The position numbers and the translations under genes were made by a program. A stretch of 50,514 nt of DNA, taken from assembly GCA_026391945.1 (NCBI GenBank), contig JAPLDA010000054.1, positions 1 through 50,514 of the forward strand, written 5' to 3'. How positions within the stretch are numbered: the stretch's first letter is position 1; the number at the start of each line of letters is the position of its first letter. Below are positions 11,301-27,219 of this stretch, piece by piece. The notes beneath the pieces are model-generated. The model searched no databases, had not been told where the DNA came from, and saw nothing but the letters and a program-made list of their open reading frames with translations. Origin of the DNA: Bacteroidota bacterium. GTDB lineage: Bacteria > Bacteroidota > Bacteroidia > AKYH767-A > 2013-40CM-41-45.

Positions 11301-13906
11301 GAGACCTGAGTACAAACCTTCCTGCCGGAACCTATCATTATTCGGTAACAGATGATCATGGATGCAAGGCTTATGCATCCGCAGAAATATTGGCAGCCCC
11401 GCCTTTGCTGACATTGACGGCTACAGCCACTCAACCATCCTGTTTTGGCGACCTGGGAAGTGTGAACCTTCAGGCAGCCGGCGGAGCCGGATCCTATTTG
11501 TATGCGGGAGATAAAAATGTTCTGATGGGTCCCGGAACCTATTATTATTCTGTAACGGATTCAAACGGCTGCCATGCCTATGCAACGGTTACGATCGATG
11601 CTGCGCCATCGCTTCTTGATTTAATTGTCACACCTTCACAGCCAAAATGTTTTGGGGATAAAGGAAGCGTATCCTTGCTTGCCGGTGGTGGTGTTTCATC
11701 TTATTCATATAGCGGTGATGCCATCACCAACCTTGTTGCCGGAACTTATCATTATATGGTTACTGACGGAAACAATTGCCAGGCAAACGGAATAGCTGTT
11801 GTCAATGCTGCTCCTTCAGCGCTGGTATTGACTGCAACTCCTGTTCAGCCGATGTGTTCCGGTGATAAAGGAAGTGTTACATTAAGTGCAACCGGTGGAA
11901 CCACACCATATATATATAGTGGAAGCGCCACGACTAATCTTACTCCGGGCATTTATAATTATATCGTGAAGGATGGCAACAACTGTTCATCCAATGCTTT
12001 TGCTACGATTAATTTGGTAACACAGGTTTCAGGCATTACTTCAGTGACTCCATCCGGTTGTTCTGTCAATTCAGGAACAGCGATGGTGACGCCTTCGGGC
12101 GGTAGTCCGGGTTATAGTTATTCCTGGTCACCCGGCGGACAAACCACTCAGACTGCTACCGGCCTTGCAGCCGGAAATTATACGGTGACCATTAAGGATT
12201 CTCACAACTGTACGGGAACTGCTTCGGCTACTATTTTTTCTGCCGGTACGTTCCCTGCCGTCCCGGGAGCTATCAATGGTCCATCTGGTGCATGCAGAAG
12301 CCAGTCAGGTGTTGTGTATTCTGTAAGTGCAGTTCCGGGTGCAACAGCCTATCTATGGACAATTCCATCCGGAGCATCCGGATCTTCTTCCACGAATTCA
12401 ATCACCGTCAACTTCAGCAGTTCATATAGTGGCGGGTCCATTTGTGTGAAGGCATTGAATGTTTGCGGAACCAGTGCGTCTTCCTGTATTAACGTTCCGC
12501 GGATCTCATCAGCTCCTTCAACTCCCGGTTCAATTTCCGGATCTTCTACCATGTGCGCACCTGCGACGGGAGTTTATTCGGTTGCTGCAGTGGCGAATGC
12601 AACCAGCTACTCATGGACTGTAGCAGGAACGGGATTATCCATCACATCCGGACAAGGAACTAAATCCATCACCGTTTCTGCAGCTTCAGGATTCACCAGT
12701 GGCTCTGTTTCGGTGAGAGCAGTCAATTGTGCGGGAAGCAGCAATGCGGTGACTAAAAATGTGTTCGGATCTTTGATCAGCGTACCGGTTTGGTTCCCTG
12801 ACCCATCCGATAACTTCGCCATCGGAGTTTGCGGAGGCAGTATGATGGAATATGAAATTTACCAGGTTCCCGGAGCAACATCTTATACATGGTCAGCGCC
12901 GGCCGGTTGTATTATTTCCGATGGGCTTGGACATTCTGGAAATCCGCTCACTTTCGCCGGACAGAATGCAGCGGGAGAATGGGAAGTATATATCACGTTC
13001 CCTTCCGGATTTGTTTCAGGCAATGTAAGTGTATATGCAAGCAATGCATGTGGGAACAGTCCCGTTCTGTCCATGGCAGTTCGTTCAGCGCCTGTAGCAC
13101 CGGCAGCCATCGCAGGCAACACTTCCAATGTTTGCCGTAAGAGCGGGTTGATCTATTCGATTCCCGCAGTGAACGGCGCCACATCCTACACATGGAGTGT
13201 TCCTTCGGGTGTAACCATCGTCACCAATTCAGGGACGTCCATCAAAGTGAATTTCGGAAACAGCTTTACCTCTTCCGGGAACATTTGTGTGAAGGCGAAT
13301 AATACCTGCGGATCCAGCGCTCAGTCGTGTATTACTGTGAAGGCACCACCTGATCAACCAGGAACGATAACGGGTGCCGCTTCTGTATGCAAGAGCCAGT
13401 CATCGGTTGGTTACTCCATTGCTGCTGTAACCGGTGCAACATCGTATTCGTGGAGCATTACAGGTGGAGCAATTTTCGTCGGGGCCACTACAGGAACTTC
13501 CGTGACCGTTAAATATTCTTCTTCCACTTCAGCGTCTGCGACTTTATCTGTGAAAGCGAACAATACCTGTGGATCGTCTGTTGCGAGAACGTTTGCTGTT
13601 GCCGTCAATCTCAGTTGCCGCACTACAAATATGAATGAAGAAGTGAACCTGCTTCCGGGTGTCCAGGTTTATCCGAATCCTACTTCCGGTAAAACCAATG
13701 TTGTTTTCTACGCGGAAGAGGAAAAAGATTATTACCTGGAAGTGATGGATTTCACCGGGCATCGTGTGTACAGCAGAACCATCAAGGCGCAAAAGGGAAA
13801 CAACATCAGCGAAGCTGATCTCAGCGGTTTTGCTTCCGGTTTGTATTTCATCAGCGTTGCCGGTGAAGGCACACCGAAACAGACCGTGAGAGTGACGGTC
13901 GAATAA
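2354..13906 (+). CDS. giant multidomain T9SS-exported protein with subtilase-like, Kelch, LamG, MBG and SprB segments
   Basis: A 3850-residue secreted protein (roughly 400 kDa) in one uninterrupted frame. Order seen: signal peptide (1-20); about six Kelch-like repeats of some 50 residues, each with a D(F/T)W-type motif (21-310); LamG-like domain (312-475); MopE-like metal-binding motif, DADGDGYGNP then DCDDSNPNVHP (from 546), a galactose-binding-like segment, then a second MopE-like motif near 757; F5/8-like segment (825-975); SprB/Ig-like repeats (980-1515); second LamG (1529-1700); subtilase-like domain with Asp1947 (GVISDSYN), Asn2073 (AAGNFG) and Ser2293 (GTSCAAPHAAG), but no HGTH motif; MBG-like domains (2452-2880) interrupted by KVVTN repeats; SprB repeats (2881-3222); five PKD-like repeats; and a T9SS sorting domain (from about 3766, VQVYPNPTSGK). 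A surface adhesin with protease-like activity is the simplest inference; substrate unknown. A strong terminator follows at 13926. Confidence 0.9.
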   Translation: MKKIIALLIPFLVTAACVQADSWQQKANFGGTGRYNATGFSIGDKIYFGLGGDAGSARNDFWEFDVHANTWTQKSNFTGSARTSAVGFSVGTKGYVGTGVDSLGFKFDFYEYDQASNTWTQKSNFPGGGRANAVAFAMNGKGYVGTGYNGGYTYDFWEYNPAINAWIGKPAFPGGPRDKAVGFSIGNHGYIGTGQNAGGNLGDFWEYNPVTSTWQMRDSLPGPGRFGATGFGVNGKGYIGLGTYNSNYPNDFWQYDTLVGHWSPATIFPSMGRAYAVGFSTANLGFVISGNNGFGTYLNDTWSFGPIRGEALNFDGIDDYITGPVELIPVTGNYTVSVWAQNTNLQSGTYREIVSQGRHFYIGYDISRMIRIGDDWVNTGVPFPTDGNWHNYSVVRSSTNTILYIDGVQAASAGYPIPNPTNTPLYGNPVATFVIGEQWCYPCNENFSGNIDEVRVWGRNLTHAEILHNLSCEIPSTATGLLANYHFNQGVANGTNTADVILGDSSENGNNCSLINFALNGNTSNWVLPGGVVTGNVCSPCNPLTWYIDADGDGYGNPLVSQVSCSQPLGYVTDQTDCDDSNPNVHPFAIEIPNNGIDENCDGLDADVLAQSDTSWKYSNTLELGWEQTAFDASSWNPAFAIGSGCFGGIPNTTRIWGDHNNGWTSYLRKSFLVGSITTPVVLDYEIDDDVTIYVNGQLVVLDQDGQATGPIYDVNIAPYLVPNSINVIAAQVTDIYCCDYGFCVRAHNVAGNFITYYADADGDGFGNPSVDSLAVMMPPGYVLDNSDCDDTDPMVHLSSPVIVSGGPLTLPSCTGASVNLSVGNLRNVHFADAVLGYSSGYSSPDYGPGQALGAPDVYPAYGDNPLAWSPLSQDGSREYIDLGFTNSGQVNFIDIYETYSPGSIDSVYIFNPYNYTYELVYSAAAGAAGETARILHITFPTPAFPVTAIRIMMNSPFVHDWNEIDAVSIGQIVPASYSSYAWSTDEITPSIAAAATGSYSVTVSTGGCTGMTPPVEITSTHVIAGPSFNWEICPGTSTVLAAGGASIYLWNTGDTSSYITVAPTVVTTYSVIGTDAYGCSSTDSITVYIYNPIHPGTVVVQGACTQQSNGSIHVGPATGGVLGGYTYTLSGNDQLFQNTDGVFDNLFSGSHHLNIMDGASCSFDTTIMVPDISPATVISSSDTIFCEGDTVTLTAPASGSYAWSTGDTAQSITFIATYDHLLFLQRGSVGSHTQSRIYSVNTSVNGCNSIGLITIYTNPSPAIVLAASSPDCYAYLFNVNIEGTGGTAPYSGTGTSLVQPAFYSPDTTLNFSITDSSGCTASGSILVTQPTPVTAGMSAVTNVTCHGGSDGSIQLSGVTGGTLLSDTHAYPTGYSYFLFGPGGSYPVNSTGLFTGLPAGNYFIGAYDGHGCGFYINGGISLTITEPDPLIITSTPAKPEVCPHELTNVVLSASGGVAPYTFSGDLTTDLAPGTYQYTVIDFTGCSANDTVRISENVLPSPVITANGSLYVCTGSSVTLKVQHLGGTALNFDGVDDYVEGYNPNLPVGNEARTIEAWINPAQFHSGSIFNWGSYNGFVSNDRSGILYINHHLYFVGENNDLEGGIQIDPGVWTHVAATFDGNTLSLYVNGVLDASRTINLSTGLTNFRIGMGNPTTNYQPFNGAIDQVRVWDYALQQSEIISNMSTSNPTGNPPVVLVRNSNYVPANGLVAYYMFNEAAGITTNDEVLDSSAVLYNGPAWITSNAPVDQFTGYSWLPNGEITDTIVVSDPGTYSVLVNNSLGCSATSSIVVTVRQCILPYYQPPDSGKTITPLGSELTQLYQNPDSIGDTTNNAVFLVDQGSVLIEVISNAGMHDSLYTLLQTPAYGMNNFISNGDTTLIITGNFPIVHLPLLNGLPTLINYVRPYYPPVSNTGFISSAGDISMRSDSARNVFDVDGEGVKVGVISDSYNTQSGDPASTDRLNGDLPGAGNSSDTTSVEVVAEYPFGKRSDEGRAMLQVVHDIAPKAKLAFRTGFVSAGDFAEGIKEMQSAGCHVIVDDVSYVTEPFFQDGVVSKAVDYVKAQGVSYFTAAGNFGNKSYEGVFNPVPAPPGMTGKAHDFGGGDIYQSVTLPPGVYTIVLQWDDSIYSLGELPGAKNDLDIYLTDNAGGKLFGFNRKNNWGDPIEVLPFTVGGGTATANIMIVRAWGTDNVRFKYIVFRGEMTINEFQGGNSTIVGQANSEGAMTVGAALYSNTPAFHVNPPTVASFSSIGGGAVRGGVRNKPDFVAPNGVNTSVSFGAPDYDHDGNPNFFGTSCAAPHAAGVAALLIHGRRKFYSDDLKPDSVRAILQRTSIDMDAAGFDFNTGSGLIQADAALQSFATPRPVITQLNLSNNSITPGTQPVDVTVVGSYLSPQSQIVFNGTILTTTFVDVNHLTATFPGFNGNPAVQVYNPPITPSGSDGGYSDPLYFFMNYKPTVRVTADHKTKRYGEKLPDFTFTATVDNVPLANTGLSFADLGLDSVYFTSSATSASNTGNYFIHPYIELDTLNDSADAVLYHTYSYIFNDGLLAIRRMPVVVSPMDTTLVYGDKIAGFHFSYDYDQTNIDISDQAAFLSSIEADHSSTMTDAIAFVDAKVVTNGKVVTNVDLTKLSMLTSAKVVTNAKVVTNAKVVTNSIVFDTTLLVEVAPQSIFNYENDSANTTLESPGPGSHSRALLNAKVVTNGVGIVNAKVVTNGSPIVNSTTVSDSSNEKTVVIIDEDDVADSSNTLTDLKSINMITGMTVGVWTIVPGALISDNFDISYGLGTLIITPATLVVKADDKDAACSALPEFTSTITGFQYSDSANTVDSIPPSYAVFDHSNVQVSGIPPAGSYDIVPGGLMQFVQPDYIVQYVNGLLTMPSAITLTATPTQPLCSGDVGRVTLVAGGGAGSYSYGGDVTTNLAGGTYHYTVTDANGCIAEASVTMDDAPALLTLTATPEQPKCFGENGKVTLVANGGTGSYSFGGDLSTNLPAGTYHYSVTDDHGCKAYASAEILAAPPLLTLTATATQPSCFGDLGSVNLQAAGGAGSYLYAGDKNVLMGPGTYYYSVTDSNGCHAYATVTIDAAPSLLDLIVTPSQPKCFGDKGSVSLLAGGGVSSYSYSGDAITNLVAGTYHYMVTDGNNCQANGIAVVNAAPSALVLTATPVQPMCSGDKGSVTLSATGGTTPYIYSGSATTNLTPGIYNYIVKDGNNCSSNAFATINLVTQVSGITSVTPSGCSVNSGTAMVTPSGGSPGYSYSWSPGGQTTQTATGLAAGNYTVTIKDSHNCTGTASATIFSAGTFPAVPGAINGPSGACRSQSGVVYSVSAVPGATAYLWTIPSGASGSSSTNSITVNFSSSYSGGSICVKALNVCGTSASSCINVPRISSAPSTPGSISGSSTMCAPATGVYSVAAVANATSYSWTVAGTGLSITSGQGTKSITVSAASGFTSGSVSVRAVNCAGSSNAVTKNVFGSLISVPVWFPDPSDNFAIGVCGGSMMEYEIYQVPGATSYTWSAPAGCIISDGLGHSGNPLTFAGQNAAGEWEVYITFPSGFVSGNVSVYASNACGNSPVLSMAVRSAPVAPAAIAGNTSNVCRKSGLIYSIPAVNGATSYTWSVPSGVTIVTNSGTSIKVNFGNSFTSSGNICVKANNTCGSSAQSCITVKAPPDQPGTITGAASVCKSQSSVGYSIAAVTGATSYSWSITGGAIFVGATTGTSVTVKYSSSTSASATLSVKANNTCGSSVARTFAVAVNLSCRTTNMNEEVNLLPGVQVYPNPTSGKTNVVFYAEEEKDYYLEVMDFTGHRVYSRTIKAQKGNNISEADLSGFASGLYFISVAGEGTPKQTVRVTVE
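10187..10492 (+). repeat. KVVTN peptide repeats inside the giant protein
   Basis: Seven copies of KVVTN, mostly as AKVVTN, lie within residues 2612-2713 of the giant protein: two at 10190-10219, three in direct tandem near 10259-10309, and two near 10441-10492. Codons differ between copies (gta/gtg, gtc/gtg/gtt, acc/acg, aat/aac), so most copies are conserved as peptide rather than as recent DNA duplications. They sit in a long insertion between the first strand (PVVVSPMDTTLVYG) and last strand (NFDISYGLGTLIITPA) of an MBG-like domain. Function unknown. Confidence 0.9.
10994..12020 (+). repeat. five SprB-type repeats of about 68-70 residues
   Basis: Each unit starts LTATPxQPxC(S/F)G(D/E), continues with a glycine-rich strand, GSYSY-G-D, a TNL-AGTYHY segment and VTDxxGC. 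Units begin near 10994, 11201, 11403, 11613 and 11820. The pattern matches the SprB repeat of large Bacteroidota surface adhesins. DNA identity between units is modest, so these are old repeats. Confidence 0.8.
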
Positions 13907-15446: not shown

Positions 15447-16118
15447 TTAAGAAATAATTTTTCCGTCAACGATTTCAATGATCCGGTCGGCGCCTTTTGC
15501 AAAATCAATGTCATGCGTAACGGTGATGATGGTGTTGCCTTTCGTTGCCAGTTCTTTCAGGATGCTGAATACAATGTCAGAATTTGCGCTGTCGAGATTT
15601 CCTGTTGGCTCATCCGCCATGATGATGATCGGGTCGTTCATCAAAGCGCGGGCAATCGCAACACGCTGCTGCTGTCCGCCCGATAACTTCCCCGAAGGTT
15701 TGTTCGCAAATGAATCCATCTGCATCTGCCGGAGTTTGTCGATGGCTTTTGATTCGATTTCTTCATTGCTGAACTTCGCCAGTTTTCTTGCCGGCATCAT
15801 CACATTCTCCAGCGCCGTAAATTCAGGCAACAGGAAATGAAACTGGAAAACAAAACCGATGTTTTCATTCCTGAATTTTGACAGTGCGTTCTGGCTGAGC
15901 CCGGTCACCTTTGTATTCTTAATGGTGATGCTTCCTTCATAGTCAGTATCCAGCGTGCTCAGCAGGTATAGCAACGTTGATTTTCCGCTTCCCGATTTCC
16001 CGATGAGGGAAACAAACTCACCTTCTTTCACTGACAGCGACACATCGTTCAGCACATGAAAGTCTTCCGGCTCATGAAAATATTTGTGCAGGTGTTGTGC
16101 TTTCAGAATTTCATTCAT
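15447..16118 (-). CDS. ABC transporter ATPase, LolD/MacB type
   Basis: A 223-residue nucleotide-binding subunit that would power the adjacent FtsX-type permease. Walker A is GKSGSGKS (residues 40-47), the ABC signature LSGGQ is at 145-149, Walker B ends in Asp169-Glu170 (IIIMADEPTGNLD), and the switch histidine is His202 (VTHD). The sequence EFTALENVMMPA is typical of the LolD/MacB/FtsE group. It is the third gene of a minus-strand operon after a membrane fusion lipoprotein (17429-18526) and the permease (16166-17425). That order fits a MacAB-like exporter rather than the lipoprotein-releasing LolCDE, but the ATPase alone cannot separate these. Substrate unknown. Confidence 0.88.
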   Translation of the reverse strand: MNEILKAQHLHKYFHEPEDFHVLNDVSLSVKEGEFVSLIGKSGSGKSTLLYLLSTLDTDYEGSITIKNTKVTGLSQNALSKFRNENIGFVFQFHFLLPEFTALENVMMPARKLAKFSNEEIESKAIDKLRQMQMDSFANKPSGKLSGGQQQRVAIARALMNDPIIIMADEPTGNLDSANSDIVFSILKELATKGNTIITVTHDIDFAKGADRIIEIVDGKIIS

Positions 16119-16165
16119 GAGAAAAACGATTCAGAGATATGTGGTGCCTGGTCATTCTGTTTTAA

Positions 16166-17425
16166 TTATCCTCTCAGGATGGCTACCGGGTCCACCCTCG
16201 ACGCTTTGATGGAAGGCATAAGCCCGGCAACAAACGTGGTGAGAATGCCGAAGACCATTCCGAATGCATAATGTTTAGGGTTGAAGATCACCGGGAAATA
16301 TTTCAGGCCGATAAAATCATTCGATGGAAACGGAATGCAGGAAAGGATGTACGATAACGTGAAACCAAGAAGTATCCCGCTCAGCGCTCCGAGAAAACCG
16401 ATCACCAGCGACTGCGATAAAAAAATCTGCACAATGTCTTTTCGTGCAAAGCCCTGCGCTTTCAGGATGGCAATGTCTTTCATCTTGTTTGCAATCGTCA
16501 TGTTCATGATGTTGTAGATTCCGAAGCCGGCTACTACGAGCATCGTGATGCTCACTACGAACGTAAGCGTATTCCTGACGAGGTTGCCCGCCATCACCGA
16601 TGAGTTGGCGAATTCCCAGTCTTCGGCTTTGCTTTCATATTTCCTGGAAAACTCTTTCGCTTTTTCCACGGCGAGTTTGTTGTCTTTCAGTTTTACATTG
16701 ATGTCGGTGATGTAACTTCTGTCTTTGCCCAGCAACTGCTGTACACTTGAAATGTTCACGTAACTCTTCACATTGTCGATGGTGCCGATTCCGATTTTAA
16801 AAATTCCGACAATCCGGAAACGCATGGTGCTGCCTGTCGGCGTGGCCAATGCAACAAGGTCACCGGTTTTTACATTCAGCTTTTGTGCAAGGCCGGAGCC
16901 CATGAGAATACCGTTGTCGGTGGTGAGAAGATTTTCAGTTTTTCCAACCACCATTTTTTCCGACAGGTTAAACAGGCGCGATTCTTCAATGATGTTCACT
17001 CCCTGGATGAAGCCATTGATCTGCACCGGTCCGTAATTGTAAAACACCTGCGTACTCAGCATCGGGGAAACCGCCGCCACGGATGAATTCTGTTCCAGGT
17101 CGGCCATGATGGCATCGGCATTCCTGATGTTCAGTTTTATTTGTTTCGGCTTCGGGTGATGAACCACCACCAGTTGTTTTGGATTGTTGAAATATTCCCC
17201 GGCTACAGAAACGGAGTAATCGGTTTTCAGATCGTTGTAGATGTGGATGTCGGGCGTTGCCTGAAGCATCGTATCCTCCAGGAATTTATTCACGCCCTGC
17301 ATGAAACTGATCATGAGGATGAACATGGCAATTCCGAACGTGACGCCGAGGATGGCAACGATGGTTTGCTTCTTCCGTGAAAGGAGATGGGTTTTGGAGA
17401 TATCAAAATTTACCGGCAGTGCCAT
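16166..17425 (-). CDS. FtsX/MacB-type ABC transporter permease
   Basis: A 419-residue inner-membrane permease of the MacB/LolC type. It has one N-terminal membrane helix (IVAILGVTFGIAMFILMISFM), a periplasmic domain of about 230 residues, and three C-terminal helices in the FtsX domain (LTFVVSITMLVVAGFGIYNI; LSQSLVIGFLGALSGILLGF; FGMVFGILTTFVAGLMPS). The coupling segment before the second helix pair, KMKDIAILKAQGFARKDIV, is characteristic. These proteins do not form a channel; they move substrates mechanically in the periplasm with an adaptor. The start lies 3 nt from the stop of the adaptor gene, so the two are surely cotranscribed. There is no fused ATPase, unlike E. coli MacB; that subunit is the next gene. 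Confidence 0.88.
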   Translation of the reverse strand: MALPVNFDISKTHLLSRKKQTIVAILGVTFGIAMFILMISFMQGVNKFLEDTMLQATPDIHIYNDLKTDYSVSVAGEYFNNPKQLVVVHHPKPKQIKLNIRNADAIMADLEQNSSVAAVSPMLSTQVFYNYGPVQINGFIQGVNIIEESRLFNLSEKMVVGKTENLLTTDNGILMGSGLAQKLNVKTGDLVALATPTGSTMRFRIVGIFKIGIGTIDNVKSYVNISSVQQLLGKDRSYITDINVKLKDNKLAVEKAKEFSRKYESKAEDWEFANSSVMAGNLVRNTLTFVVSITMLVVAGFGIYNIMNMTIANKMKDIAILKAQGFARKDIVQIFLSQSLVIGFLGALSGILLGFTLSYILSCIPFPSNDFIGLKYFPVIFNPKHYAFGMVFGILTTFVAGLMPSIKASRVDPVAILRG

Positions 17426-17428
17426 GAT

Positions 17429-18526
17429 CTATTTCTTGGAAGGAATGATCACTTCAGTTGACTCATCCAGTCCGCCGGTGATTTCCACCAGGTCGAGTGT
17501 ATGAATGCCTGTGAGTACGTGAATGGTTTTCTGTTTTCCGTCTTGTTTCACCCGGATGCTGTCTTCGGAAAGCAATGCATTTCTTGGAATCACGAGGGCT
17601 TGTGTTTTCTTCTGTACGATGATGTTTGCTTCCACTGAACTATGTATGAACTGTTGTTGGGTGGAGTCTTTAAAGACGGCATCCACGCGGAACGTCTGGT
17701 CCAGTTCATTCATCACCGGGTACAGCCGCGAAACCGTTGCATGGTAAATCGTGTTGCCGGTGACATCCATTTTCAGTAAAACTTCCTGCCCGGTTTTGAT
17801 TTTATCAATGTCCTGCTGATCGACTGATAGCTTGATGATTCTCCCGGAAGTTTCACCGAGCAAAGCCACCACTTCATTCATCCGCACACTTTCGCCGGCT
17901 TCTTTGAACGTCTGGAAAACGGTTCCGTTGTTTTCACTCCTGATAAAATAATTATCGAGATCGGTTTGTGCGGATGCCATTTGACTTTTTGCATTATGTA
18001 AAACCACGTTGAGTTCGTTGAGGGCAACCTGGTATTTTTCTTCCGCTGATTTTTTCTGGTTCTTCGAAATGGTGTAATTCGTAAAAGCATTGTCCACATT
18101 GTTTTTGGAAGCTGCATTCTGATCGTACAGATTTTTCAAACGGAAATACTGGAGCGAATCATTTCTGAATTTCACATCTGCATTTTGCCGCGAGAGTTCC
18201 AGGTCATTCAACACCCTTGAACGGGGAGAAAGATTCGATTCCGCATTTTCAAAACTGCTCCTCGCTGCGTCCAGCCTGGCCGCCGGCGCTTCGTTTCTGA
18301 TGACATAAATGCTTTGTCCTTTTATGACGGTATCTCCGTCTTTCACCAGTTTCTCTTTCACGGTTCCATTGCTCAGGGCAAAAAGATAATATTCCTTTTC
18401 GGAAATGATCTTACCGGAAGCATACACCGTTTCGATGATGTCTTTCTTTTCCGGTTTTACGGTTTCGCCTGAACGTGAACAGGCACTCAGCAGGATTATG
18501 AAACTGAAAAAAAGAATTTTATTCAT
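17429..18526 (-). CDS. HlyD/MacA-type membrane fusion lipoprotein of the ABC exporter
   Basis: A 365-residue periplasmic adaptor. The start MNKILFFSFIILLSAC is a lipoprotein signal with Cys16 as the lipidated residue. After it come a short barrel-sandwich strand (GTVKEKLVKDGDTVIKGQSI), a long alpha-helical hairpin rich in Asn, Gln and Lys (about residues 75-195), the second half of the lipoyl-like domain (SENNGTVFQTFKEAGESV), and beta-barrel segments. It would link the FtsX-type permease encoded immediately downstream to an outer-membrane channel. No TolC-like gene belongs to this operon, but one lies in the neighbouring RND operon and could be shared; that is inference. Substrate cannot be read from the sequence. 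Confidence 0.85.
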   Translation of the reverse strand: MNKILFFSFIILLSACSRSGETVKPEKKDIIETVYASGKIISEKEYYLFALSNGTVKEKLVKDGDTVIKGQSIYVIRNEAPAARLDAARSSFENAESNLSPRSRVLNDLELSRQNADVKFRNDSLQYFRLKNLYDQNAASKNNVDNAFTNYTISKNQKKSAEEKYQVALNELNVVLHNAKSQMASAQTDLDNYFIRSENNGTVFQTFKEAGESVRMNEVVALLGETSGRIIKLSVDQQDIDKIKTGQEVLLKMDVTGNTIYHATVSRLYPVMNELDQTFRVDAVFKDSTQQQFIHSSVEANIIVQKKTQALVIPRNALLSEDSIRVKQDGKQKTIHVLTGIHTLDLVEITGGLDESTEVIIPSKK

Positions 18527-18587: not shown

Positions 18588-18950
18588 TCATTCCTTTTTT
18601 GTTTTCCCGATCATTCCGAGATGTGTGTGATGAAAACCATCGGGAAACTTCAATCCGTATCCAAGCATGCGGTCGAACGATGAATGAGCAAACAACAGGA
18701 TTCCTGCGAACTCAAATTGCATAGAAGTCATGGAGTATCCAATGATAAAAATCAGCAGGGCGATTCCTTTGTGATGGAGTAGGTTGTAGGTGATGGCTCC
18801 AACGCGGCTGCCAGCAAGGTATCCGAGCATTCCAAGATCCGGCGCAAGAAACATAATCCAGAACCACATCCACGACAGGTGAAGGGCATGAACAGCCATC
18901 AATGAAACAATCAATTGAACAGCTTCTTCTGATTTAAGAATTATTTTCAT
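18588..18950 (-). CDS. DUF4260 family small membrane protein
   Basis: A 120-residue integral membrane protein of the DUF4260 family, whose function is not known. Its marks are APDLGMLGYL near the middle, the YNLLHHKG segment, and the C-terminal LLFAHSSFDRMLGYGLKFP followed by HTHLG. Three or four hydrophobic segments are visible, separated by His-rich loops. It follows the RND pump gene by 37 nt on the same strand and could be the last gene of that operon. Conserved histidines (HH, AHSS, FHHTH) suggest a membrane enzyme or metal site, but nothing here identifies a reaction. Confidence 0.8.
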   Translation of the reverse strand: MKIILKSEEAVQLIVSLMAVHALHLSWMWFWIMFLAPDLGMLGYLAGSRVGAITYNLLHHKGIALLIFIIGYSMTSMQFEFAGILLFAHSSFDRMLGYGLKFPDGFHHTHLGMIGKTKKE

Positions 18951-18987: not shown

Positions 18988-21900
18988 TTACACTTCCATT
19001 GAAGTGATCAGTTGACTTACCGGCTTCGCAGCAACACCTTCATCCACCGGCAATCCTCTTAATTTTTTAATACGGTTCCTGGTTCTCTCAGCAAGCAAAT
19101 ACATCACGGGTACCATGATGAGTGTAAGGAAGGTTGCAAAGCCCAGCCCGAAAATCATCGTCCATGAAAGCGGTCCCCAGAATGCCGTGCTGTCTCCTCC
19201 GAAATACAAATGCGGATTCAGTTCACTGAACAATGTTCCGAAGTCGACGTTCAGCCCGATGGCAAGCGGTATCAATCCAAGAATGGTCGCCGATGCGGTA
19301 AGGATCACCGGCGTCATTCGGGTTCTGCCGGCTTCCACGATGGCATCGAATGTCGGAAGTCCTTGCTGCCGCAGGAGATCGGTGAATTCAACCAGCAGGA
19401 TTCCGTTTCTCACCACGATACCGGCGAGTGCAATCACACCTACGCCGCTCATGACAATACTGAATTCCATTTTCCAGAATGAAAAACCAAGCAGCACGCC
19501 CGTTACGCTGAAAGCAATTTCAGCCATGATGATCAACGGCTTGCTTACTGAATTGAACTGGATGACGAGGATGAGGACGATGAGCAGCATACTCGCCATC
19601 ATGGCCCATCCGAGGAAGGCGCCGGTTTCCGCCTGTTCTTCCTGTGCGCCGGTGAATTTTACCGTCACGCCGTTTTCCGGATAAAATCCTTCAGCAGCTT
19701 TTTTCACATCTTCCACCACAGCCTGTTCATTGTGGCCGGATAGCACGTTGGATGAAAGCGTCACCAATCGCTTTTGATTTTTTCTTTTGATCAGCCCGTA
19801 CGTGTCTTCATATTTAATGTCGGCGAACGAAGAAAGCGGAACATCCCTGATGGCGCCGCCCATGGCCATGTCGCGGTAAAGTATTTTCAGGTTCTTCAGC
19901 ATGTCCACGTTGTTGCGCTGATCCGTTTTGTACCGAAGCATGATTTTATAATCGTCGTTCAGGTCCCGGTACTTCGATGCTTCCCATCCGAGCACGGCCG
20001 CCTGTATCTCGCGCCCGATCTGCGTGGTGTTGATGCCTTCGCGGTTCGCACGTTCACGGTCAATCGTGAAGGTAACCTGCGGCTTCTGATTCTGCAGGTC
20101 GCTTCGCAATTCTTCGACACCTTCAATGTGAAGCGAGTCGAGGTAACGTTTTAAATTCCGGCTCGTCTTAACGATGTCTTCGTAACTGTCGCCGCTCACT
20201 TCAATGTTCACCGGTTTGCCCACGGGAGGGCCGCCCTGTTCCTGCGCCACGGTTATTTCAGCACCGGGAACACATCCTTTCACAGCTTCCCTGATGCGGT
20301 CGAGGTATTTTGACGTGGACTCTCCATTGCGTTTTCCATATTCAACAAATGCAACCTGTACTTTGCTCTTGTTTGGATAGGCACTCTGATCTTCATCCTG
20401 CGGATCGCTCACTCCAACGGTTACATTGGCAATCACAGACTTCACCATTTTATTCGGCCAGTTGATGGCGTGATACACTTTGTCTTCAATAATCTTGGTA
20501 ACCGAGTCGGTGTACGCCTGGTCGGTACCGACGGGCAGCGATGTGTAAACGAAAATAAAATTCGGATCTGCTTTCGGAAAAAAACTGATGCCGCCGTTCC
20601 GCAAAGCGATGGCAAAGAAAGAAATGACCAGCACCGCCAGGGTGGAGGCCATCAAGGTCCGCGGCCGGCGCAGGCACCAGGTGAGCAGCGTGCGGTAACG
20701 ATCCTGGAACCGTGGCCATGTTTCTTCCTGGAATTTTTTTATTTTTTGTTTCAGCCAGAAACGATTCACCAGGTTGAGGATTAAAACGAGGATGGCAAAA
20801 TTTCCAAAGCCAATATTCCTTGTGAGGTAACTCAATAAAATCACAGATCCAAAAATGATGAGCGACATTTTCAAACCTTTTCTTCCGTCATCATGTTTGT
20901 CGGGATGAGGTTTCATGAACCGTGCTGCGAAAACAGGATTGATGATGTAGGCCACCACCAGTGAAGCGGTGAGTGTTACGATCAACGTAACGGGAAGGAA
21001 GAACATGAATTTTCCGATCACGCCCTTCCAGAACAGCAGCGGCACGAACGGTGCGAGCGTGGTGAGCGTTCCGGAGAGTACCGGCAGGAACACTTCGCCG
21101 GCGGCCATCTTCGCCGCTTCGATGATGTTTCTTTTTCCGTTGGCAAAAATCCGGTGCGTGTTTTCAATCACCACGATGGCATCGTCTACCACGATTCCAA
21201 GAGCCATCAGGAAGGAGAAGAGTACGATCATGTTCAGCGTGAAACCGATGGTTGGCATCACCAGGAATGCGAGGCACATGGAAAGCGGCACCGACATGGC
21301 GACAAAAAAAGCGTTCGCCGTTCCCATGAAAAACATGAGGATGAACAATACGAGGATGAATCCGATGATGATGGTGTTGATGAGATCATGCAGCGTGGTT
21401 CTTGTTTGCTGGCTTTGATCGCCGGTAAGCGTCACCTGCACATCCTTCGGCCATGAATGAGTTTTCATGTCATCCACCAACTTTACAATTTTATCAGAGG
21501 CGTCGATGAGATTTTCACCTTTCCGTTTTACAATGCTCAACGTGATCACATTTTTATGATCGAGCCGCGCGTAGGATTCCTGCTCTTTGTGTGAGTCGAT
21601 GACTTCAGCAATGTCTTTCAGGTACACGGGTTTCCCGTCGATCGAATTGATGACGATGTTGCTGATTTGTTCCGGCGATTTGAATTCTCCCGTCACACTC
21701 AGCGAACGCCGCACGCCGTCCATCCTCACGGTACCACCGGGAATCGTGGCGTTTTCATTTTTCACCGCATTGTAAATGTCGTACATGCTCAGCCGTGCCG
21801 ATTGCATCTTCAGCATGTCCACGTTCACTTGTATCTCGCGTTCGAGCGCGCCGATCAGGTCAACCTGTTTCACTTCCTTCATGCTTTCGAGTTGTTCTTT

Positions 21901-22401
21901 CGCTTCGTCAGCATATTTTTTCAGTTTAGCTAAATCATAATTGCCGGAGATGTTCACGTACATGATCGGCAACTCGGCAAAATTGATTTCAATGATCTGC
22001 GGGTCGTTCGGCAAATCCTGCGGAAGATCCGTTCTCGCACGGTCCACCGCATCTTTCACCTGCATTTTTGCCACGTCGGTTTTTACATCGCTGTTAAACT
22101 CGACGACGACGTTGCAGTAATCCTGCAGCGAATTGCTTTTTATTTTTTTTACTCCCGTGATGCCTTTGCACTGTTTCTCAATCGGCCGCACCACCAGGTT
22201 TTCCATGTCGGTGGGTGAGGTGCCAGGGTACAGCACGCTCACGTAAATATTCGGAAGTGAAATATCCGGGAAGCTTTCTTTCGGAAGAGCATTGTAGGTG
22301 ACGATTCCTGCGATGATGAGGATGATCGTCATGATGAAAACAGAAGTGCGGTTGTTGATCGCCCAGCTGGAAGGTTTGAATTCTTTATGGATGTCCTGCA
22401 T
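18988..22401 (-). CDS. RND efflux pump inner-membrane subunit, AcrB/HAE1-like
   Basis: A 1137-residue RND transporter that would use the proton gradient to export substrates across both membranes together with the adaptor and TolC-like proteins encoded upstream. It opens with an inner-membrane helix after NNRTSVFIMTIILIIAG and has the KESFPDISLP segment of the family. Transmembrane helix 4 carries the proton-relay pair Asp406-Asp407 in GIVVDDAIVVIENTHR. An extra hydrophobic stretch after the first membrane bundle (LKMSLIIFGSVILLSYL, then GNFAILVLILNLV) makes it longer than E. coli AcrB (1049), as often in Bacteroidota. The acidic pair favours the hydrophobic/amphiphilic HAE1 group over heavy-metal pumps, but substrates are not determinable. 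Confidence 0.9.
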   Translation of the reverse strand: MQDIHKEFKPSSWAINNRTSVFIMTIILIIAGIVTYNALPKESFPDISLPNIYVSVLYPGTSPTDMENLVVRPIEKQCKGITGVKKIKSNSLQDYCNVVVEFNSDVKTDVAKMQVKDAVDRARTDLPQDLPNDPQIIEINFAELPIMYVNISGNYDLAKLKKYADEAKEQLESMKEVKQVDLIGALEREIQVNVDMLKMQSARLSMYDIYNAVKNENATIPGGTVRMDGVRRSLSVTGEFKSPEQISNIVINSIDGKPVYLKDIAEVIDSHKEQESYARLDHKNVITLSIVKRKGENLIDASDKIVKLVDDMKTHSWPKDVQVTLTGDQSQQTRTTLHDLINTIIIGFILVLFILMFFMGTANAFFVAMSVPLSMCLAFLVMPTIGFTLNMIVLFSFLMALGIVVDDAIVVIENTHRIFANGKRNIIEAAKMAAGEVFLPVLSGTLTTLAPFVPLLFWKGVIGKFMFFLPVTLIVTLTASLVVAYIINPVFAARFMKPHPDKHDDGRKGLKMSLIIFGSVILLSYLTRNIGFGNFAILVLILNLVNRFWLKQKIKKFQEETWPRFQDRYRTLLTWCLRRPRTLMASTLAVLVISFFAIALRNGGISFFPKADPNFIFVYTSLPVGTDQAYTDSVTKIIEDKVYHAINWPNKMVKSVIANVTVGVSDPQDEDQSAYPNKSKVQVAFVEYGKRNGESTSKYLDRIREAVKGCVPGAEITVAQEQGGPPVGKPVNIEVSGDSYEDIVKTSRNLKRYLDSLHIEGVEELRSDLQNQKPQVTFTIDRERANREGINTTQIGREIQAAVLGWEASKYRDLNDDYKIMLRYKTDQRNNVDMLKNLKILYRDMAMGGAIRDVPLSSFADIKYEDTYGLIKRKNQKRLVTLSSNVLSGHNEQAVVEDVKKAAEGFYPENGVTVKFTGAQEEQAETGAFLGWAMMASMLLIVLILVIQFNSVSKPLIIMAEIAFSVTGVLLGFSFWKMEFSIVMSGVGVIALAGIVVRNGILLVEFTDLLRQQGLPTFDAIVEAGRTRMTPVILTASATILGLIPLAIGLNVDFGTLFSELNPHLYFGGDSTAFWGPLSWTMIFGLGFATFLTLIMVPVMYLLAERTRNRIKKLRGLPVDEGVAAKPVSQLITSMEV

Positions 22402-22451: not shown

Positions 22452-23585
22452 TTACAGTTTGATGGCATCTCCTTCAATCACGTTCTGGTATCCGGTGGTG
22501 ATTACTTTATCTCCTTTTTCCAAACCGCTCCGGATTTCCGACACGCCGTTGTAGATCATCCCGGAGGTCACGGTTTTTCTTTTGGCAATGGTTTTCCCGT
22601 TTTCGTTTTCCGCGATGTAAACAAATTCTCCGTCGGTGGATTTTTGCACCGCGCCAACAGGAACCACAAAGGAATGGGAAGCGGCATAGTCAGAAATTTT
22701 CAGAACCACCACCTGGTTCGGGTGGAAGTCGCCGTCGTTCCGGTTGAGCCGCACTTCTACGTTGAACGTCCTGTTCAGCGTGTTGATAGCTTGCCCGGAA
22801 TAATCCAGCCGGGTTTTAATTTCTTTATTCATGTCGGGGAAAAACAAAATCACCTCGTTGCCGATTTTCACTTTGCTGATATACGATTCAGCCACTTCAC
22901 CTTTTACCTTAAGGTTGGAAAGATTCACGACCCGCACGGAAGGAATTCCGGGAGCAACAGCCTGTCCTATTTTGATGTTCACGAGGTCAACCGTTCCGTT
23001 GATCGGCGATTTGATCCGTGTCATCTCCCATTGCTCATGCAGCGAAGCATACTGTTTTTCCATCGCTTCTTTCTGAGTCTTCGCCTGGATGAACTGCACT
23101 TCACTTCCGATTTTCTGATCCCAGAGATTTTTCTGTTTGTTGTACATCGTCACGGCCATGTCGGTTTGCGTTTTCAATGCTTCGAGGCTTTGCCGGATGG
23201 TACGGTCATCCATCGTAGCGAGGGTCTGTCCTTTTTCAACGCGGTCACCGGTTTTCACCAGCACCGCAGTCACGGTTCCCGGCATCTCAGGACTCACCGT
23301 TACATCTTCATCACCATCCACCTTTGCCTGCACTTCCACGTAATGACTGAACGACTGCGGAATCATCTCCGTAACCGAAACAAATTTTGATTTCGTTTCT
23401 TTCTGAGACGTGTCGGCGGCAGCCAGTTCGTTTTCAAGTTTGTTTATCTTTTCTTTCAGGTCAGCCTGTTGTTTTTTCAGATCCGTCAGCTGCGCCTGTT
23501 TGGCGGCAAGCGGGTTCTTGTCGTTTCCTGTTCCGCAGGAAGCAAGAGCGATCAGGATCATGGTGGCTATAAGATAATTTTTCAT
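22452..23585 (-). CDS. RND efflux periplasmic adaptor lipoprotein
   Basis: A 377-residue adaptor (AcrA/HlyD family). The start MKNYLIATMILIALASC is a lipoprotein signal, lipidated at Cys17. A predicted coiled coil follows directly (about residues 28-65, rich in Lys, Gln, Glu and Leu), which is not part of the usual AcrA core. Then come the lipoyl-like halves (SPEMPGTVTAVLVKTGDRVE and TRIKSPINGTVDLVNIKIGQ) around a short helical hairpin, and beta-barrel and membrane-proximal domains ending in KGDKVITTGYQNVIEGD. It lies between the TolC-like and RND genes, with 50 nt to the pump and 40 nt from the channel gene, so these are one operon. Confidence 0.88.
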   Translation of the reverse strand: MKNYLIATMILIALASCGTGNDKNPLAAKQAQLTDLKKQQADLKEKINKLENELAAADTSQKETKSKFVSVTEMIPQSFSHYVEVQAKVDGDEDVTVSPEMPGTVTAVLVKTGDRVEKGQTLATMDDRTIRQSLEALKTQTDMAVTMYNKQKNLWDQKIGSEVQFIQAKTQKEAMEKQYASLHEQWEMTRIKSPINGTVDLVNIKIGQAVAPGIPSVRVVNLSNLKVKGEVAESYISKVKIGNEVILFFPDMNKEIKTRLDYSGQAINTLNRTFNVEVRLNRNDGDFHPNQVVVLKISDYAASHSFVVPVGAVQKSTDGEFVYIAENENGKTIAKRKTVTSGMIYNGVSEIRSGLEKGDKVITTGYQNVIEGDAIKL

Positions 23586-23625: not shown

Positions 23626-24969
23626 TTATTTGATGTTTCCAAGGGCTTTTTCAAGATTCACTTTTGCAACAAGTGCATCGTACAAGGAATTGTAGTAATT
23701 CGACTGGGCTTCTTTCAAAGAAGTTTCAGCGTTGATGACTTCCAGGTTGGAACCTACACCCTGGTCGTATTTGGCTTTGCTCACGCGCACCACTTCATTC
23801 GCCAGGTCAAGATTTTGCTGTTGCGTGTTGAAAGAAGCGAGTGCATTGGTGAGGGAGGTGCGGTTCACTTCCGCTTCAAGCGACAAGGCGTTGGCTACCT
23901 GCTGCAACTCATTGTCAACTTTTTTCAACGCCAGTTTTGCCTGGTCGATTTTCCGTTCGCGTTGCAGGCCGTCAAACAGTTTCCACGAAAACGTGGCGCC
24001 GATGATTCCTGTCGGGTACCATTTTTTGTCGGAATCGAAAATGTTGAACTGGTTGCGCTGCGCAGAAGTACTCAGGCTTCCGTAAGCAACGATGGACGGG
24101 ACGTACTGAACTTTGTAACGTTTCAGATCGAGTGACTGTAAATGCTGTTGAGTTTTTAAAAGTGAATACTCGATGCGTTTGGTGACATCCGGTTTTTCGG
24201 CATTCATCATCGTATTTTTTATTTGCCCGGCGTTGAGTGAATCGGTGAGAACGAGGTTGGTGTGAATGTCCATGCCCACCTGGAACCTGAGCATGAATTC
24301 ACTTAAGATGAGAAGCCGTGAAACATTTTCTTTTTCCGTTGAGAGGTTGTTGTAGGTGAGTACGATCCGGTCAAGATCAATTTTCTCAACAAAGCCATTG
24401 TCGTATAAAGCTTTTGTATCGTCCCTGAGTTTCTGAACACGGATCATGTTTGCTTCCATCAGTTTCATCCGTTCCCGGCTCACCAGCACATTGTAATAGG
24501 CTTTGCTTACCGACACTGCCGTTTCAATTTTTGTACGCGTAAGATTTTTCTGGGAAAGTTCACGGTAGGTTTTGGATGCCTGCACGCCGACGAGGTACGA
24601 CGGTTCGAAGATGAGCTGCGATGCATTCACGCCCGCCGTAGCATTCCAGCGCGTACCGAATTTGATCCCGAGAAATTCTCCTGCTTTCCCTCCGAAAAAT
24701 TCAGCGGGGATCAGTGACGTAGGCAGTTGTTCGAAATCTTTCAGGTCGAAGCTGGCGCTTAACTGCGGCAGCCCCATACCAATCACTTCATTCACTTTGG
24801 CATTCGAAACCTGTTCGTCAATTTGCGCATTCACCACGTCGGCCTGGTGCTGGTAAGCATATTCAATGGCCTGCGGCAACGAGAAACTGAAAGTTTCCAC
24901 ACGATCCTGCGCAACGGCGATCCCGGCGGTAAAAATGAAAGGAGTGAGGAATAAAAATATTTTTTTCAT
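23626..24969 (-). CDS. TolC-family outer-membrane efflux protein
   Basis: A 447-residue outer-membrane channel protein of the TolC/OprM family. The chosen start (MKKIFLFLTPFIFTAGIAVAQ) gives a clear signal peptide; an upstream TTG would add six residues before it. The mature protein has the two-fold alpha-helical repeat of the family: one half around SLPQAIEYAYQHQADVVNAQ, the other around DGLQRERKIDQAKLALKKVD, with the typical ending YDQGVGSNLEVINAETSLKEAQSNYYNSLYDALVAK. It is the second gene after tetR, 57 nt downstream of it, and precedes the adaptor and pump genes. It would complete the tripartite pump and may also serve the ABC exporter next door, which has no channel gene. Confidence 0.88.
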   Translation of the reverse strand: MKKIFLFLTPFIFTAGIAVAQDRVETFSFSLPQAIEYAYQHQADVVNAQIDEQVSNAKVNEVIGMGLPQLSASFDLKDFEQLPTSLIPAEFFGGKAGEFLGIKFGTRWNATAGVNASQLIFEPSYLVGVQASKTYRELSQKNLTRTKIETAVSVSKAYYNVLVSRERMKLMEANMIRVQKLRDDTKALYDNGFVEKIDLDRIVLTYNNLSTEKENVSRLLILSEFMLRFQVGMDIHTNLVLTDSLNAGQIKNTMMNAEKPDVTKRIEYSLLKTQQHLQSLDLKRYKVQYVPSIVAYGSLSTSAQRNQFNIFDSDKKWYPTGIIGATFSWKLFDGLQRERKIDQAKLALKKVDNELQQVANALSLEAEVNRTSLTNALASFNTQQQNLDLANEVVRVSKAKYDQGVGSNLEVINAETSLKEAQSNYYNSLYDALVAKVNLEKALGNIK

Positions 24970-25026
24970 AGAGGTATTGGTTAACAATGAATGGGATAAT
25001 AGTGTTAGTGTTTGATGATGTGTTTT

Positions 25027-25641
25027 TTATTCTTCTTCGATTACCTGTTTGTATTTGTTGATCAGTTTATGTCCTTTTAAGGTGACGATGCCGTGGAGGA
25101 AATGATCCAGCGAAACCAGCTGCACTTCGGTGAGGTTGAATTTGCTGTGCGGGAAGATGGCGGGGTTGAATCCCATTTCCACATGTTCGATCCTGAACTT
25201 GGCGAGGATTTTTACATTCAGGTCTTTCCGGTAAAGCCCCAGCCTGATGCCGTGTTTCAGGTTTTCTTCGATGAACACCTGCATCTTCTGTTCTTTGAAT
25301 TCGCGGAAGTACTTCCACGATTCGGAATGGAATTTCTGGAGGTCATAAAAAACGGTCGGGTTGATGCGGCTGAACGTACGGCCTACACATCCCATGGCCC
25401 TCATCAGTTCGTCCACCGGGTTCTCCGATTGTTTGCGGATGTCGTGAAGTTCTTTCTCCTGGTTCGCCATTTCCAGTTTGGTCAGTGCTTTCACTAAGGA
25501 ATGTTTGTCGGCGTAACTGTCGTAGATCGTCCGTTTCGACATGCCGAGGTGACTGGCAATGGCATCCATCGTGATGCTTTTGATGCCATGACGGAAGAAA
25601 AGTTCGGCAGCGGCTTCCAGTATTCTGTCTTCAGTTTTCAT
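25027..25641 (-). CDS. TetR family repressor of the RND efflux operon
   Basis: A 204-residue TetR-type regulator. The N-terminal DNA-binding domain is clear: RILEAAAELFFRHGIKSITM, then the helix-turn-helix IASHLGMSKRTIYDSYADKH (about residues 28-47). The rest is the variable ligand-binding and dimerisation domain; its ligand is unknown. It is the first gene of the tetR-tolC-adaptor-pump operon. Just upstream a 24-bp palindrome (25676-25699) lies between and over the promoter elements, so the protein probably represses its own operon and is released by a pump substrate. That mode is inferred from position; the family is certain. Confidence 0.92.
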   Translation of the reverse strand: MKTEDRILEAAAELFFRHGIKSITMDAIASHLGMSKRTIYDSYADKHSLVKALTKLEMANQEKELHDIRKQSENPVDELMRAMGCVGRTFSRINPTVFYDLQKFHSESWKYFREFKEQKMQVFIEENLKHGIRLGLYRKDLNVKILAKFRIEHVEMGFNPAIFPHSKFNLTEVQLVSLDHFLHGIVTLKGHKLINKYKQVIEEE

Positions 25642-25664
25642 GTTGGGTTCTTCGAAATGCGCCG

Positions 25665-25695
25665 CAAAACTATGGAAACTTTATTAACTACCAAA
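25665..25695 (-). promoter_or_regulatory. promoter of the tetR-efflux operon
   Basis: Read on the minus strand, TTTG (25695-25692) is followed after exactly 19 nt by TAGTTTTG (25672-25665), a full match to the Bacteroidota -33/-7 pattern. Transcription would start near 25658, giving a leader of about 17 nt before the ATG of tetR. This is the best promoter in the window. Confidence 0.65.
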
Positions 25696-25699
25696 GTTT
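25676..25699. promoter_or_regulatory. palindromic TetR operator
   Basis: AAACTTT (25676-25682) and AAAGTTT (25693-25699) form a perfect 7-bp inverted repeat with a 10-bp centre, 24 bp in all. It covers the -33 element and most of the spacer of the tetR promoter. A TetR dimer bound here would block RNA polymerase. Assignment to this regulator is by position. Confidence 0.6.
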
Positions 25700-25875
25700 T
25701 CTCAGTTTTTTTTAAATTTTTTTTTTGGATTCATCGAAGGTGTTAATGATTTCTTAACAAGGGGGGCCAGTCGGTTCACCATGATCCCGTTCAGGCATCA
25801 AACTAAATTAGAGGATTACCATGATTCACTCTTCAAAAATTTTTAACTTCGGGCTCTCTATTTAAAAGCCTGAAA

Positions 25876-27219
25876 ATGGAATTAAATGCGTTAAACGCTG
25901 TTTCCCCTGTAGATGGCCGCTACCGGAATCAAACCGAAGAACTCGCCGCTTATTTTTCTGAAGAAGCACTGATCCGGTACCGTTTAATGGTTGAAGTTGA
26001 ATATTTTATTTCCTTGTGCGAATGGCCGCTGCCGGAAATGAAAGCGGCGGATAAAAAAGCCGTCCTTTCCCTGAGGAATATTTATGAGCAGTTTACACCC
26101 GCTTATGCGTTGGAGATTAAAGCATCAGAAAAAATCACCAACCACGATGTGAAGGCCGTGGAGTATTTCCTGAAGAAGAAACTGGAGGAACGGAATTTAT
26201 CTGCCTTCAAAGAGTTTGTTCACTTCGGGCTTACTTCGCAGGACATCAACAACACGGCTTTTCCGCTGGCCATTAAAAATGCTGTGGAAAAAATTTATTT
26301 CCCCATGCTGCAGGATGTGATCACAAAACTGGATCAGTTGTCGGAATCCTGGAAGGACATCGCCATGCTTTCGCGCACGCACGGACAGCCGGCATCACCC
26401 ACGCGTTTGGGCAAAGAGATCAAAGTTTTTTCTGAACGGCTGAAAAACCAGGTTCAGCTGCTGAAGTTGATTCCGTTCACCGCAAAATTCGGAGGAGCAT
26501 CCGGGAACTTCAATGCGCACCATGTTGCCTACCCTGAGATCGACTGGAAAAAATTTGCCGATGAATTTGTAAAGAATAAACTCGGGCTTCAGCGCCAGCA
26601 GTACACGACGCAGATCGAGCATTATGATAATTTGTGCGCGCTCTTCGATAACCTTAAACGCATCAATAACATTCTCATCGATTTGAACCGCGATGTCTGG
26701 ACGTACATCTCCATGGATTATTTCAAACAGGAAATAAAAGCCGGCGAAATCGGTTCTTCCGCCATGCCGCATAAGGTGAACCCGATTGATTTTGAAAATT
26801 CGGAAGGCAACCTCGGCATGGCCAATGCTTTGTTCGAGCACCTCTCGGCAAAACTTCCGATTTCAAGATTGCAACGCGACCTCACCGATTCGACGGTGCT
26901 GAGAAATGCAGGTGTTCCGTTTGCCCACACACTCATCGCTTTGAAATCTCTGATGAAAGGACTGAATAAAGTGGTCGTGAACAAAAAGGCCATGGATGCC
27001 GACCTGGAAGCGAACTGGGCCGTGGTGGCGGAAGCCATCCAGACCATCCTCCGGAAAAACAACGTGGCCAACCCGTATGAGAAACTGAAAGATCTCACGC
27101 GTACCAATCAAACGATCACGAAAGAATCCATCGCCGCTTTTATTGATTCACTCGATGTGAGCGATGAAATAAAACGTGAGCTGAAAAAAATCACTCCTTT
27201 TAATTATACCGGAATCTGA
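25876..27219 (+). CDS. purB: adenylosuccinate lyase
   Basis: A 447-residue cytoplasmic enzyme of the fumarase/aspartase superfamily. It cleaves SAICAR to AICAR and adenylosuccinate to AMP, releasing fumarate, in purine synthesis. It belongs to the E. coli-type PurB group (456 residues), opening LNAVSPVDGRYRNQTEEL. The catalytic loop SSAMPHKVNPIDFENSEGN starts at Ser294; the catalytic His is in SRTHGQPASPTRLGKE; FVHFGLTSQDINNTA is the second signature. It is divergent from tetR with a 234-nt spacer and is followed 10 nt later by a glycosyltransferase gene, probably cotranscribed without a functional link. No motif residue is missing. Confidence 0.95.
   Translation: MELNALNAVSPVDGRYRNQTEELAAYFSEEALIRYRLMVEVEYFISLCEWPLPEMKAADKKAVLSLRNIYEQFTPAYALEIKASEKITNHDVKAVEYFLKKKLEERNLSAFKEFVHFGLTSQDINNTAFPLAIKNAVEKIYFPMLQDVITKLDQLSESWKDIAMLSRTHGQPASPTRLGKEIKVFSERLKNQVQLLKLIPFTAKFGGASGNFNAHHVAYPEIDWKKFADEFVKNKLGLQRQQYTTQIEHYDNLCALFDNLKRINNILIDLNRDVWTYISMDYFKQEIKAGEIGSSAMPHKVNPIDFENSEGNLGMANALFEHLSAKLPISRLQRDLTDSTVLRNAGVPFAHTLIALKSLMKGLNKVVVNKKAMDADLEANWAVVAEAIQTILRKNNVANPYEKLKDLTRTNQTITKESIAAFIDSLDVSDEIKRELKKITPFNYTGI

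Follow-up and report, generated by a model that had tools for sequence, protein, structure and literature searches.

The efflux locus and its promoter

The window, that is, the whole 50 514-nucleotide stretch of DNA that was analysed, carries on its minus strand a gene for a TetR-family regulator of 204 amino acids (tetR, 25027–25641), followed by genes for a TolC-type outer membrane efflux protein (OEP; 23626–24987; PF02321, 130.6 bits versus a cut-off of 22), an RND periplasmic adaptor (22452–23585; TIGR01730, 180.6 bits versus 94.9) and an RND permease (ACR_tran; 18988–22401; PF00873, 638.9 bits versus 28). OEP, RND_mfp and ACR_tran domains thus occur together, as in a tripartite RND efflux operon, and the gene order, with tetR first downstream of the promoter, is the one given by an earlier sequence-only reading of this DNA. 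The divergent neighbour on the plus strand is purB (25876–27219), which is syntenic in relatives and lies outside the proposed switch. A DUF4260 gene (18588–18950, minus strand) is located directly downstream of the RND gene, an order also found in genome G001, and genes for an adaptor, an FtsX/MacB-type permease and an ABC ATPase (15447–18526) follow the operon on the same strand. Elsewhere in the window, positions 2354–13906 of the plus strand hold an open frame of 3850 amino acids.

The regulator contains a TetR_N domain at residues 7–53 (PF00440, 49.1 bits versus a cut-off of 24), and scored far below the cut-offs of the NCBIfam equivalogs for AcrR (24 bits versus 271) and for the tetracycline repressor TetR (20.3 bits versus 265). 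Its AlphaFold model has a mean pLDDT of 73, with values of 87–94 for residues 1–60 and of 38–60 from residue 141 on, and places the recognition helix at approximately residues 36–42, including Arg37 and Asp41. A search of the PDB gave 226 matches (E ≤ 0.001); among the 50 listed, most are named TetR-family or other transcriptional regulators, and the solved sequence relatives include CprB (1ui5, 4pxi, 5h58) and CgmR (2yvh).

Upstream of tetR, the minus strand carries a promoter of predicted σABfr type (consensus as quoted in a passage of PMC7366714): the –7 box TAGTTTTG (25672–25665), which fits TAnnTTTG, is preceded at 19 nt by TTTG at approximately –33 (25695–25692), as had been read from the sequence. 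These positions refer to a predicted start site, which presumably lies with a short leader in the 23 nt (25642–25664) that separate the –7 box from the first codon of tetR. The perfect inverted repeat AAACTTT-N10-AAAGTTT described for this promoter is present at 25676–25699 as a single copy, both in the window (0.01 copies expected from dinucleotide shuffling, a figure that applies to a pattern picked post hoc) and in the 3.1-Mb genome. When all 7-bp inverted repeats with gaps of 0–16 were counted in the intergenic gap, one was observed where shuffles averaged 0.71, and at least one was present in 40% of 500 shuffled versions of this AT-rich gap. We accordingly rejected the 7-bp repeat as evidence by itself; because it is within chance when judged from the window sequence alone, the evidence for a site is comparative.

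The comparison indicates a larger conserved unit of 28 bp, GGAAAC-N16-GTTTCC in the ortholog consensus, of which the sequence-only reading had captured the inner repeat and missed the outer GG and CC. In the window, this putative operator is GAAAAC-TTTGGTAGTTAATAAA-GTTTCC (25674–25701, minus strand), and departs from the consensus in the left arm, where one base of the outer GG/CC is changed. The –33 box (25692–25695) lies within the operator, and the –7 box (25665–25672) is one base away from it.

Conservation of the 28-bp site upstream of tetR orthologs

Of the 42 genomes of the order, 38 gave a match to the regulator (E up to 1e-30), as did 307 of the 395 genomes in a class sample (E up to 1e-20); part of these were read. 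We read 120 non-duplicate regions, 37 from the order (the window among them) and 83 from elsewhere in the class, after L065 (gene cut at a contig end) and the duplicates L077 and L091 had been left out; L012 and L013 are from outside the order. With L181–L187, L189, L190, L196, L197, L201, L208 and L213 omitted as duplicates, a further 44 regions brought the total to 164 upstream regions. Gene context was mapped in 40 loci and then in 83 loci, and tolC followed tetR in 40/40 and 82/83 of these, respectively, the sole exception being only 1663 bases long. An RND gene was found in 35 of the 40 loci, the other five ending before it could be reached. In the 83-locus set, 60 loci are longer, and 56 of them have an RND gene; three of the four exceptions end early, and in the fourth, L145, neither an adaptor nor an RND match was obtained. 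The other 23 loci of this set do not extend far enough to be judged for RND. Where the DNA is long enough, the operon order is kept with few exceptions.

When we searched for the palindrome upstream of orthologous tetR genes, as the sequence-only reading had proposed, GGAAAC-N16-GTTTCC was found exactly in 91, with at most one mismatch in 110 and with at most two mismatches in 115 of the 120 regions, compared with means of 0, 0.08 and 1.62, respectively, in 50 rounds of dinucleotide shuffling. Exact arms at any spacer other than 16 in the range 0–32 amounted to five in total (three at 17, one at 25 and one at 30). Looser matches, with at most two mismatches, were observed at spacers of 7 (54/120), 25 (100) and 26 (63), which we tentatively take to be an inner copy of the half-site and the –7 box read as a right arm. 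Among the 115 sites, which were preselected for at most two mismatches, the arm positions hold 1.65–2.0 bits, and the inner TTT and AAA of the original repeat hold 0.6–1.5 bits. The N16 core is missing in 6 of the 164 regions, leaving 158 sites: L071, L096 and L147 have N17 instead, L153 has neither an N16 nor an N17 core, L164, a second tetR match in its genome, has none, and L195 has no readable upstream DNA.

An inner copy of the half-site was found on the left side only, at positions 10–15, where 80 of the 158 sites agree in at least four of six bases (6.5 expected from the shuffled site interior, ignoring relatedness). This third, imperfect GGAAAY half-site within the operator can be seen, for example, in L118, L161 and L066. 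A symmetric pair of inner half-sites was rejected, since only the left copy was seen among the 158 sites.

In some regions, the 28-bp site has a second copy further upstream, at a distance from the main operator of 81–82 bp (L012, L075, L083, L084, L086, L093 and L167) or 96–108 bp (L099, L100 and L168). Five of these ten copies are exact and five have one mismatch; a further one, in L037 (one mismatch), is probably fortuitous. These second copies might function in looping or for a divergent gene. Outside the class, GGAAAC-N16-GTTTCC also occurs upstream of TetR-type genes in L223, whose TetR-type gene precedes a tolC-like gene, and in L224 and L225, whose TetR-type genes adjoin an adaptor-like gene, and the arm sequence may be a feature of a wider TetR subgroup.

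Throughout the 42 genomes of the order, we counted 45 exact places, of which 26 are tetR sites and 19 are others, versus 16 for a reversed control pattern. Seven of these 19 were read, and six lie inside open reading frames of at least 110 codons; the seventh (G022:C18; L238, 2001–2028) lies at the end of a contig, repeats the tetR operator together with its promoter, and is either a duplicate locus or an assembly copy. The genome of the window has 23 places with at most one mismatch, in excess of the 11 for the control. A wider regulon was not supported, given that the inner palindrome occurs once in its own genome and that the other places in the order stand at 19 versus 16 for the control.

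Co-variation of the arms with the recognition helix

The second base of the arm is G in most genomes. We found A at this base, in at least one arm, for 12/12 regulators having Arg37 or an acidic residue at position 41, compared with 8/145 of the others; the corresponding values were 9/9 versus 11/148 for Arg37 alone and 11/11 versus 9/146 for acidic 41 alone (157 of the 158 sites; L130, whose start is misplaced, was left out). When 1425 column-by-residue combinations were tested, positions 41 and 37 ranked first and second of all columns. According to the structure model, both lie within the recognition helix (36–42), separated by one turn and on one face of the helix.

The P values of this association (1e-9 to 7e-12) ignore relatedness, and after thinning to 119 rows, each position gave 3/3 (P = 0.001), which is not significant over 1305 tests. 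Seven of the 12 regulators belong to family f49, most of them fetched after Arg37 had been seen there, with their sites not known beforehand. In a tree built with FastTree, there are three changes for Arg37, three for acidic 41 and four for the two taken together, with one contrast on supported branches, and the 12 regulators come from about four lineages; so few independent switches allow no formal test of the co-variation.

We also searched with a DNA pattern for the Arg37-type helix, which admits Ser37 as well and misses L135, and obtained matches in 15/395 genomes of the class sample and 7/395 of a phylum sample. L227 (f72, tetR before tolC), found in this manner, has A in both arms, as does the distant regulator L220, and L221, also distant, has A in one arm. 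L222 and L226 (f36), with Arg37, show no clear N16 site, and L228 and L229 are ambiguous. L223, from another class, has Arg37 yet unchanged arms. Residue 37 was accordingly rejected as the sole determinant, since residue 41 is at least as good a predictor and L223 contradicts residue 37 alone.

The regulator of the window has both changes, Arg37 and Asp41, with A in one arm only, and the f49 regulators that were read and the f72 regulator have A in both arms. These results could reflect a specificity code that has switched several times, in which Lys37 with a non-acidic residue 41 would read GGAAAC, and Arg37, an acidic residue 41 or both would read GAAAAC; the window would then stand half-way, with both arms converted in f72 and in the f49 members read. 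We consider the chances of such a code to be evenly balanced. In our own alignment, residue 37 would correspond to P39 of TetR, three positions before a conserved tyrosine (numbering as in a passage of PMC6018408). TetR P39K is described as losing operator recognition, and V36F/E37A/P39K as shifting specificity, in the available text of PMC6570905 and PMC6515661.

The putative operator, alternative explanations and known systems

We propose, with a probability of approximately 0.9, that the palindrome serves the adjacent TetR-family regulator as its operator and that this regulator autorepresses the tetR–tolC–adaptor–RND operon. Exclusion of RNA polymerase from a promoter is the usual action of local TetR-family repressors. 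In the absence of an inducer, the regulator would bind the 28-bp site, which takes in the –33 region as well as the spacer and stops one base short of the –7 box; because the operator fills this region, the bound regulator would keep RNA polymerase off the promoter of the presumably co-transcribed tetR, tolC, adaptor and RND genes. A ligand, probably a substrate of the pump, would release the regulator, which would in this way repress both its own gene and the pump. This operator had already been put forward by the sequence-only reading, and it gains its support from the orthologs and from the co-variation with the helix, not from any significance of the 7-bp repeat on its own.

In the family of the window (f1), 9 of 11 genomes have a tetR match, and the site is found within two mismatches in 9/9 of them. 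In the other two genomes, G004 and G005, a tetR match was not obtained with an E-value limit of 1e-15; they retain tolC, the adaptor and the start of RND, and have no site within two mismatches upstream of tolC (0/2). In L254, the one match within two mismatches is located inside tolC. In G004, purB lies immediately next to tolC in divergent orientation, and TAGTTTTG is retained; in G005, which is listed with 7% contamination, TAnnTTTG was not seen near tolC, and one occurs approximately 215 bp upstream. Within f1, the palindrome is thus present with the regulator and absent without it, as judged from two tetR-less genomes, which are few. The counter-case lies outside f1: L153 has tetR with tolC, adaptor and RND genes downstream of it, yet lacks the palindrome.

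These genomes bear on the possibility that another, unlinked regulator binds the site while the adjacent TetR acts elsewhere, for example, between tetR and tolC, in the manner of BmeR5, whose binding in the bmeR5–bmeC5 gap is reported in the available part of a review (PMC4790292). We regard this as improbable, because such a site would not be expected to be missing from both f1 genomes without a tetR match or to co-vary with the recognition helix of the adjacent TetR, and because the 39-bp tetR–tolC gap of the window (24988–25026) has no match within two mismatches. The co-variation of arms and helix would instead tie the site to this regulator.

A slightly smaller chance attaches to the repeat belonging only to a longer promoter element or to what a sigma factor recognizes, and being kept for transcription rather than for a repressor. 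Consistent with this idea, TAnnTTTG begins exactly one base past the site in 129 of the 158 regions. However, in these 129 regions, the left arm is exact in 108 and the right arm in 110, whereas TTTG at a spacing of 19 is found in only 47, so that the –33 box recognized in the window is a weak feature among the orthologs. Moreover, TAnnTTTG is 15–18 bp away in 7 of the 158 sites (families f9, f14, f32, f34, f37 and f50; boxes assigned by sequence alone), which argues that the site is not a promoter part; it is 4 bp away in three, and 19 have none within 45 nt. For a site constant in form at a variable distance from the promoter, a bound protein would be a better explanation than promoter recognition, which also does not account for the co-variation of the arms with the regulator. 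A promoter kept without its palindrome had been named beforehand as a result that would count against an operator, and G004 presents this case, with the –7 box retained and the arms lost; because the tetR gene itself is absent there, the case favours the operator reading. A chance repeat in AT-rich DNA, for which it may be said that the 7-bp repeat alone is within chance, is highly improbable in view of the 115/120 orthologous regions within two mismatches versus 1.62 in shuffles.

In L205, L045, L046 and L114, merely 4–8 nt separate the –7 box from the aligned first codon of tetR, which suggests a nearly leaderless tetR mRNA or a later start.

If the regulator acts at this site as proposed, an operator common to many Bacteroidia families and open to testing is predicted for a conserved multidrug efflux regulator, together with the promoter changes that would derepress the pump, and the orthologs would provide natural regulator–operator pairs for the study of specificity change in the TetR family.

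An autorepressed efflux module is an already known kind. AcrR belongs to the TetR family, and E. coli AcrR is a local repressor of an RND pump, from which the regulator of the window differs by the low AcrR equivalog score given above. We found no published operator for the present operon in the open-access literature. In Parabacteroides merdae, transposon insertions in an AcrR-like gene (NQ542_01170) led to resistance to closantel and ciprofloxacin, and the P. merdae acrR locus and the acrR–RND–tolC locus with BT2687 of Bacteroides thetaiotaomicron resemble the window in having an AcrR-like repressor beside tolC and RND genes; the available text of PMC12669032 names no operator. If the P. merdae locus is orthologous, this description suggests hydrophobic toxicants as the ligand. 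The rae locus of Riemerella anatipestifer (raeR to raeB, B739_0870–0873) has the same TetR–OMF–MFP–RND order as the window, and the passages of PMC5727081 consulted give no operator and defer the regulator to later work. BmeR5 of bmeABC5 in Bacteroides fragilis is a TetR-family repressor of an RND pump from the same phylum with reported DNA binding (PMC4790292, in part), placed in the bmeR5–bmeC5 gap, in contrast to the site upstream of tetR in the window.

The arm centres are 22 bp, or two turns, apart and the total length is 28 bp, and we therefore suggest, with less certainty and by analogy with QacR, that two dimers might bind the site. QacR has a 28-bp operator bound by two dimers, according to the available text of PMC6018408; the site in the window agrees with it in length and geometry only, and the QacR half-site, CTATA-n9-TATAG, differs. 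The same source places CprB and CgmR in the two-dimer class of the TetR family.
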